DNA of 64,000 bases from Puccinia triticina (lineage: Eukaryota; Basidiomycota; Pucciniomycetes; Pucciniales; Pucciniaceae), in assembly GCF_026914185.1 (NCBI RefSeq), contig NC_070568.1, positions 6,159,501 through 6,223,500 of the forward strand. The letters are read 5' to 3'. The position numbers and the translations under genes were made by a program. Positions 38,163 to 39,674 of the stretch are shown in pieces. The notes beneath the pieces are model-generated. The model made no database searches. It was not told the origin of the DNA and saw only the letters and a program-made list of their open reading frames with translations. The number at the start of each line of letters is the position of its first letter. Within the stretch, counting starts at the first letter, position 1.

Positions 38163-39674
38163 TTACGCATCCCGAACAACCTGGCGTATGGAAGAGCGGT
38201 ACTCCTCCGAGACTGCTTGGAACACGTGGATTCGCTGAATACGAACTCCCTCGTTCTCGGTCGGGGTGCGTTGACAGTAGGAAATGAAAACGCGGGCAAA
38301 AGTCTGATACAACCGAGTATAAGCTTCCGGGTCGAGGCCGGGAAGTGGAGCAGTTTGAGTCGGAACCAATTGCTGGCGTGGCTCCAGGAGAACCTGAACC
38401 TGGGTGTCACTCAAGAATGGGAGATCGCCATGGGGAAAGAAAGGAGTATGGGCGGGACCGGAAGCCTGAGAGGCGTTTTCGGAATCCGTTATGCCTTCCG
38501 CATCGGCATTGGAACCGAGCATGGGCGGGCGATATAAAGCCTCGACCTCTGGCAACGCGGGTCGGAACATCCACCCGGGAAGAGTCGACCAAGTAGAATC
38601 CCACTCGGGAGTTGGAGGGACCTGACCATAAGCTTTATTAGCAACAAGAATAACCTTAATACAAAACAAAGGAAAAGAGACTTACCCCACCCGACCACTT
38701 GAAGAGTTGGTCCAACTCGTCTTCGGTCTCACCAACCTGAGATTGATCGGCGTCTGAGCCACCAGAACGATCGGAGCGCCTCTCCGACGCAGCAGATCCA
38801 ACGGACGAGCTACGGCAACTCGTAGCCGGGGTCGTAAGCGGGGAAGGTTGGGGGGCAGGAGGGACAAGCCAGTCGTCCCCGATAAGGACCCGATTGGACT
38901 GGAAAAACTGTGTAGACTCAAGAGCTTAGCAAATGGATGAAAAAAAAAAAAAAAAAAAAAGAACAGCGAAAGGATACTCACCGGGTTCTTGGTTGGCTCA
39001 GTAGCGGGAGAATAGGCTGGGGAGTCTGTCCCAGACCTCCAGCCCGGGCTGCGAGGGCGGTAAACGGGAGAGGGGAAGAGAGCATGCGAACCCGCAACCG
39101 GGGACCGAAGGCGCGGGTGGAGTCCCACCAAACCAGGTGGAACCCGCGATGGGGAAGGCGATGGTGTGCGGGGGACATTCGGGGACCCTGGACGGTCATC
39201 TGGGGCAATAATCTTGACAATATTGGATTATCAATACAATACCTACGATACCGATACCGATAAGAGTAAAAATATAAAAAGGACTTACCGCTGCTACTTC
39301 AGCTATCGCATCTCCATCAACAGTGAAGGGGCGCTCGGGAATTGCAGCCCCATCCTTGCGAGTTCGCCTAACGCGGGCCCGAAGGCCGTGAGATTGTTCA
39401 AAAGACTCCATTCGCTGCCTGGTCCATTGAAACCAGGATGGGGTGATAACATCACCTCGGTAGATCGGTCTGTCCATAATGATGATAGGATTATGGACAG
39501 ATGAGCCCGGCTGGAATGAAGCAAAAAGGTTCAGAGCAGGAGTAAGCAAACGATCTAAAAACAAGCAAAATTAGGAAAACGCACACGGCTCGGGGCCTCT
39601 GAAGAGACGCCTCGGCTTCTCAAAGGATAAGGCGACGAATGAAAATAAGTTCTGTAATAAGTACGGCGGGGCAT
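38163..39674 (-). CDS. Antisense spliced gene inside element B, unknown function
   Basis: The model is complement(38163..38621, 38686..38898, 38982..39212, 39289..39510, 39585..39674), 404 aa from ATG MPRRTYYRTYFHSSPYPLRS. All four introns (74, 76, 83 and 64 bp) are GT-AG and phase 0, and every exon length is a multiple of three, so the frame is unbroken. Exon 2 has ITPSWFQWTRQRMESFEQSH and a basic LRARVRRTRKD. Exon 3 is rich in SP/RSP. Exon 4 is Ser-rich and ends in an acidic stretch (GETEDELDQLFKW). Exon 5 (VPPTPEWDSTWSTLPGWMF..., then RLYQTFARVFISYCQR) is probably helical. There is no known domain, signal peptide or membrane segment. A TATA box lies about 100 bp upstream (39776-39782). The gene runs opposite to gag-pol, between integrase and the 3' LTR. 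It could be a captured host gene or an element-encoded accessory or antisense protein. Confidence 0.75.

Follow-up and report, generated by a model that had tools for sequence, protein, structure and literature searches.

A spliced antisense gene, probably maintained by selection, in a Ty3/gypsy element of the wheat leaf rust fungus Puccinia triticina

How can a retroelement keep a gene interrupted by introns, and what might such a gene do for it? The question is raised by a locus of Puccinia triticina, the wheat leaf rust fungus, within a stretch of 64,000 nucleotides (contig NC_070568.1, positions 6,159,501 to 6,223,500; hereafter the window), where a Ty3/gypsy element on the plus strand contains a gene on the minus strand, located between integrase and the 3' long terminal repeat (LTR). 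The gene has four phase-0 GT-AG introns and five exons, each a multiple of three nucleotides long, which join to 404 amino acids (aa) and a stop codon. Comparison of its copies leaves little doubt that it constitutes a protein-coding gene of the element under selection. The product is probably an accessory regulatory protein of a Ty3/gypsy lineage, encoded by this spliced antisense gene with five exons and its own TATA-like promoter.

The exon boundaries, all on the minus strand, are based on aligned copies. Exon 1 (39674-39585, 90 nt) contains the start codon, which has matching starts in three more distant protein types (C, D, and E; see below), and is followed by exon 2 (39510-39289, 222 nt), exon 3 (39212-38982, 231 nt), exon 4, and exon 5 (38621-38163, 459 nt), which contains the stop codon and, according to a structural model, a C-terminal helical domain. 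Two in-frame acceptors, separated by 9 nt, are available to intron 3. An earlier reading made from the letters of the DNA (the sequence-only reading) had started exon 4 at 38898 (213 nt), while the upstream acceptor gives an exon of 38907-38686 and a protein of 407 aa. The upstream acceptor is preferred because the database model P0001 uses it (...NPFFQSNRV...), the C type reads NPFLVSNRV where the window reads NPFFQSNRV, and the copy L014 has no downstream AG. The five-exon, phase-0 architecture of that reading is confirmed, with 407 aa rather than 404 aa as the better supported length. Intron 2 ends with CAAG in the window's clade and with CTAG in clade B. Another intron is predicted right after the stop codon (38153-38076, minus strand); its GT...AG is kept in the aligned copies, and similar sites occur in the C and D types. 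The upstream TATA box is borne out as a conserved TATA-like motif: GAGTATAAAAG (39785-39775, minus strand) is kept in 13 of the 14 aligned copies, the remaining one (L007) having different DNA upstream.

Are these features preserved as those of a protein gene would be? A genome search with the antisense stretch returned 24 matches, and 14 copies including the window's (L001-L008 and L010-L015) were aligned; the split copies L009 and L016, the internally deleted L017, and the fragments L018-L020 were kept out. Exons contain only two indel blocks in 1224 bp (a 12-nt in-frame gap and a 23-nt deletion), whereas introns contain 24 blocks in 288 bp, 18 of which are not multiples of three. GT and AG are present at all four introns (with the upstream acceptor for intron 3), except in L012 and L013, where the donor of intron 1 was lost through a deletion; L010-L013 are almost identical among themselves. 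The ratio of nonsynonymous to synonymous substitution rates (dN/dS), calculated according to Nei-Gojobori with control frames computed beside the true frame, is low between clades A and B (0.33 for L001-L010, 0.30 for L006-L010, 0.39 for L006-L015, and 0.30 for L007-L010), with control frames at 1.02-1.68 apart from one reverse frame. For L001 against L006, L007, and L008 it equals 0.42, 0.28, and 0.42, respectively, while pairs with decayed copies reach 0.57 (L010-L015) and 0.77 (L010-L014). Differences at codon positions 1, 2, and 3 number 48/35/93 in L006-L010 (chi-square p 1e-7), 21/6/32 in L001-L007 (p 2e-4), 17/13/30 in L001-L008 (p 0.02), and 66/49/93 in L001-L015 (p 8e-4).

A frame not conserved in other copies would have contradicted the sequence-only reading; the frame is conserved, and it is intact in seven of the 14 aligned copies (L001, L002, L003, L005, L006, L010, and L011). 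The copy alignment, dN/dS, the rate comparison given below, and the contrast between exon and intron indels all point to an intact, spliced protein gene of the element that selection has kept, as had been proposed. Some observations weigh on the other side. The remaining seven aligned copies are broken by stops or by an exon 1 deletion. The exceptional reverse control frame gives 0.41-0.52 in the A-B pairs; it has the wobble position in common with the true frame. Controls of the closer pairs (0.43 to 5.34) are less clear, e.g., 0.28 against overlapping frames at 0.43-3.82 in L001-L007, and the decayed-copy pair L002-L004 yields 1.82 from 19 changes.

Two explanations that need no selected protein can be judged at this point. 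Chance splice sites might have opened a chance frame, as was assessed with 200 dinucleotide shuffles of 38063-39774, searched for phase-0 spliced frames with up to four introns of 50-100 nt. If any GT-AG is accepted, shuffles do yield long frames (227 aa on average, 404 aa in the best of 200), and the real sequence gives 433 aa; with stricter sites, the real value is 430 aa, against a mean of 95 and a maximum of 260 aa. None of the 200 shuffles reaches the real length under either setting. This test carries far less weight than the copy comparison, in which conservation of the frame, splice sites, and intron positions already contradicts chance; chance is hardly credible as an explanation. The functional product could instead be the antisense RNA, serving, e.g., as a silencing trigger or decoy, and such RNAs are described for other retroelements in the available text of PMC7264820. 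Selection acting at the level of codons (dN/dS of 0.30-0.39, the third-position excess, and indels falling in introns and not in exons) makes the RNA an improbable candidate.

Clade B (L010-L015) shows a separate peculiarity. Its integrase and exons 4-5 match those of the window at 91-99% identity, while exons 1-3 reach only 64-80%. Judged by these identities, the clade is a real mosaic, as after recombination inside the antisense gene.

How old is the association of the gene with the element? A protein search of the genome found at least 178 exon-wise matches to the antisense protein, and five distant loci were retrieved together with their surroundings. Four of them (L051-L054) have the gene in antisense orientation next to an integrase that matches the window's at 93-96% identity; in the fifth (L055), it adjoins a polypurine tract (PPT) and LTR, with an integrase match approximately 6.5 kb off. 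Besides the A type, they and further loci represent a C type protein, 57% identical to the window's, a D type, 44% identical and with one extra exon, and an E type, approximately 29% identical in exon 5, whose end is provisional. The phase-0 exon series of the window's gene recurs in the C and D types (plus the extra exon in D), start codons correspond across the A, C, D, and E types, and the C, D, and E copies that were read all have a TATA-like run ahead of the start. All fetched pieces of the D type gene in L062 are open, its start codon lying outside the fetched stretch. In the D type (L054, L057, and L062), two neighbouring exons both contain an RTPSP..R.PPG..HP-like motif, a pattern that a duplication of exon 3 would leave.

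Even more diverged homologs occupy the same place in L066, L067, and L069 (integrase 93%, 92%, and 82% identical), with exon 5 only 23-24% identical, and an antisense frame of similar pattern but 12% identity is found in L070 (integrase 75% identical). Among 58 typed integrase matches (of 111), an antisense match is listed within 5 kb downstream on the other strand in 32 and within 12 kb in 37. Two of the 21 integrase matches with no listed antisense match were read (L066 and L067), and both have a diverged homolog. Recurrence of the protein at the same place is borne out beside the integrases of L051-L054, L066, L067, and L069. Overall, such homologs in further lineages are approximately 23-60% identical to the window's protein, and their integrases 92-96%, with one at 82%.

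Evolutionary rates of the gene and of pol differ markedly at the amino acid level. Between the A and C types, dN and dS are 0.027 and 1.36 for integrase, 0.051 and saturated for reverse transcriptase-ribonuclease H (RT-RNase H), and 0.369 and 2.1 for the antisense gene; between A and D, dN is 0.031 for integrase and 0.535 for the antisense gene with dS above 3 for both, the dS values of both comparisons being near saturation and rough. Judged by synonymous divergence, the antisense gene and pol are of similar age in these elements. Amino acid change between A and C is roughly 7-14 times faster in the antisense gene than in pol, and the gene is under purifying selection, as indicated by dN well below dS. 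The poor match of the gene next to an integrase with 95% identity had initially suggested a swap of cassettes between A and C, an idea abandoned once synonymous sites of pol proved to have diverged to a similar extent.

These data bear on the captured host gene that the sequence-only reading had considered, which might be carried as a passenger. The intron-exon structure does resemble that of a host gene. The occupation of one and the same place by several old protein types, dS comparable to that of pol, and purifying selection speak against a passenger. In addition, 13 of the 49 typed antisense entries (from the at least 178 matches) have no listed integrase, two of them being further pieces of genes already counted; all 13 adjoin element parts, and none is element-free. 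A recent capture is not supported by these 13 places, and a captured passenger is very unlikely.

Some of the carriers belong to a relative of the element that has no pol (L002, L003, L009, L019, L020, and L072; C4:7572304-7581035 and elsewhere). The first five have in common an upstream sequence that bears no relation to pol of the window, and their similarity to the window begins at 37916. A unit between L003 and L002 (read in L072 and L002) has an LTR 97.8% identical to the window's, a leader 88% identical, and a gag-like frame with one stop (42% in 355 columns); no match to the window's pol was found in it. The gene in L002, L003, and L009 is of the A type, while in L019 and L020 only a short stretch matches the window's gene, at 78-79%. 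Since their modules differ, the five loci represent one non-autonomous family with more than one antisense module.

The point where similarity to the pol-less family begins coincides with an internal hairpin followed by a PPT-like run (37916..37948, plus strand), and a second hairpin with the 3' PPT adjoins the LTR (41063..41096, plus strand). AGTTGGGGGAG is present at 37654, 37937, and 41084, with one further occurrence within gag, at 33556; the copies at 37937 and 41084 are each preceded by a hairpin. The PPT-like AGTTGGGGGAGG at 37654..37665 (plus strand) has none and is also present in other lineages. The two hairpin-PPT units bracket the antisense module, and such units also occur in L002, L014, L051-L055, and L066-L071. 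In 21 chosen sequences from both sites, all 105 pair cells of the stems are standard, and two of the five pairs change on both sides. Most of the covariation distinguishes one site from the other, and a single compensated change falls inside the 3' site (L068); a mismatch is present in the internal hairpin of L075, outside this set. Covariation in the aligned stems supports a hairpin and does not prove one.

If the protein serves the element, does it build the particle or regulate it? As a structural or assembly cofactor, it would add a Gag-like or Env-like component to the particle. What the pol-less family retains is exactly a gag-like frame plus the antisense module, as if both served the element that encodes them. 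However, the gene is on the opposite strand and unfused to gag, the protein has no Gag, Env, or other Pfam match, and a hydrophobic membrane stretch is not evident by eye in its sequence; such a cofactor is consequently a rather doubtful reading.

Composition and searches provide limited guidance. The protein has basic patches in residues 1-105, a middle part rich in Pro, Ser, and Thr, an acidic stretch, and a helical C-terminus. Pfam gave no match for it (none at E 0.1), bZIP included, and the TRP28 domain (PF04195) was found neither in it nor in 15 exon 5 sequences. Sequence searches of PDB and Rfam returned nothing useful; a designed protein at E 0.17 was among the results. A full-length structure model of P0003 from six sequences was useless (mean predicted local distance difference test score, pLDDT, 29). 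A model of exon 5 from 15 sequences (mean pLDDT 59.6) is confident only in the C-terminal helices, and has no PDB match at E 0.001. Among the matches listed in protein database searches, only P. triticina proteins appear, although such searches can miss distant relatives. The models P0001 and P0003 have the same coding junctions as the described gene wherever they overlap. Genes of the element family (P0001-P0009) are catalogued publicly as P. triticina hypothetical proteins, so that some genes of such elements sit in databases as if they belonged to the host.

Other LTR retrotransposons also carry antisense accessory genes, as yet unexplained. HBZ of human T-cell leukemia virus type 1 (HTLV-1) is a spliced antisense gene of a retroelement and encodes a regulatory protein. 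The HTLV antisense promoter sits in the 3' LTR, according to the available text of PMC7264820, whereas the TATA-like site of the P. triticina gene lies approximately 1.3 kb inside the element, and its product matches neither bZIP nor any other Pfam domain. Plants provide the aORF-3R genes, such as gene23 of maize Grande and those of rice RIRE2, Silene Retand, and bean PvRetro13 (accessible parts of PMC7264820 and PMC11963269); the Grande antisense gene is described in the former as having its own promoter and a nuclear protein. The P. triticina gene, in the window and in L051-L054, resembles them in lying between pol and the 3' LTR on the minus strand. It differs in its four introns of conserved phase, in its fungal host, and in the absence of a match to TRP28 (Transposase 28), the domain of the Retand type, or to another Pfam domain. 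The plant genes are described as open reading frames, and the word "intron" is absent from the accessible texts of PMC7264820 and PMC11963269. Among fungi, Boty-like elements of Botrytis cinerea carry an antisense gene, brtn (PMC7264820 and PMC8365987, as far as available). Compared by description only, brtn likewise supplements a fungal LTR element with an antisense gene, though with an ascomycete host and a gag-pol that has a chromodomain (accessible text of PMC4227169).

The sequence-only reading had considered a spliced fungal case unusual. Antisense placement in a fungal Ty3 element is already known from brtn (PMC7264820, in the part available), while no earlier multi-intron antisense gene in an LTR retrotransposon was found in the literature open without subscription; neither were this protein family or a pol-less carrier of an antisense module. 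What looks unusual is the spliced, fast-changing gene in a fungal element.

With these systems in mind, a mechanism can be proposed for the gene as an accessory regulator. The integrated copy would be transcribed antisense, and this message would be spliced. The packaged genome would be the sense RNA, where the introns read CT...AC and do not constitute splice sites. Because no splice sites are seen in the sense RNA, introns would survive every round of retrotransposition, and their survival on the antisense strand would explain an intron-rich gene in a retroelement. The locus thus illustrates how introns on the unpackaged strand could be retained in the long term. The protein might then regulate the element, most likely in the nucleus, via transcription or escape from silencing. 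Control of the element is the likeliest role by analogy to Grande gene23 and in view of the fast divergence; a conflict with the host would fit such divergence under purifying selection.

Several points count against an accessory regulator. No domain supports nuclear action or regulation, for which the argument is one of analogy. The database models P0002, P0005, and P0008 choose partly other exons, and those of the C type add an N-terminal extension, so that starts and junctions are not settled. Evidence for a selected protein gene is strong at the sequence level, with many copies, old types, codon-level selection, fixed introns, and a pol-less carrier, and provides a testable system for the function of antisense accessory proteins.

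VANC proteins of Arabidopsis VANDAL elements are encoded by the element and counter silencing of their own family. They offer a possible analogy only, VANDAL elements being plant DNA transposons. By a more specific and unlikely proposal, the P. triticina protein might be an anti-silencing or self-recognition factor matched to its own 3' module. Hypervariable protein types and flanking cis sequences would be inherited as one cassette, sometimes exchanged between elements, bracketed by the two covarying hairpin-PPT units and taken up by a pol-less parasite. If so, a fungal retroelement would have a self-specific regulator that is spliced and intron-protected.

The element itself (30017..42033, plus strand) was delimited by LTR comparison. 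Its paired LTRs of 937 bp (30017..30953 and 41097..42033, the latter boundary also read directly; both plus strand) are flanked by GCGG on either side as a target-site duplication, and the PPT ahead of the 3' LTR (41084 onward) is kept in other lineages. The gag-protease frame (31541..34063, 840 aa) has Asp_protease_2 above the cut-off and a zinc knuckle below it, the RT-RNase H frame (34006..36351) has RVT_1 and RT_RNaseH, and the integrase frame (36364..37476, 370 aa) has Integrase_H2C2 above the cut-off and rve just under it; all are on the plus strand. The Pfam order protease-RT-RNase H-integrase is that of Ty3/gypsy elements. In the window's copy, a stop codon after RNase H and ahead of integrase breaks pol, where several other copies have open pol frames of approximately 1,200 aa. 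The LTRs are 99.6% identical, with three mismatches and one gap over 945 columns, in keeping with the young age ascribed to the element. With the formula T = K/2r and r = 1.05e-9 (from the available text of PMC9927501), their divergence suggests an age of roughly 1.5 million years, a rough figure of our own. Outside the element, the window contains a 66-nt direct repeat in five diverged copies (26655-26997).
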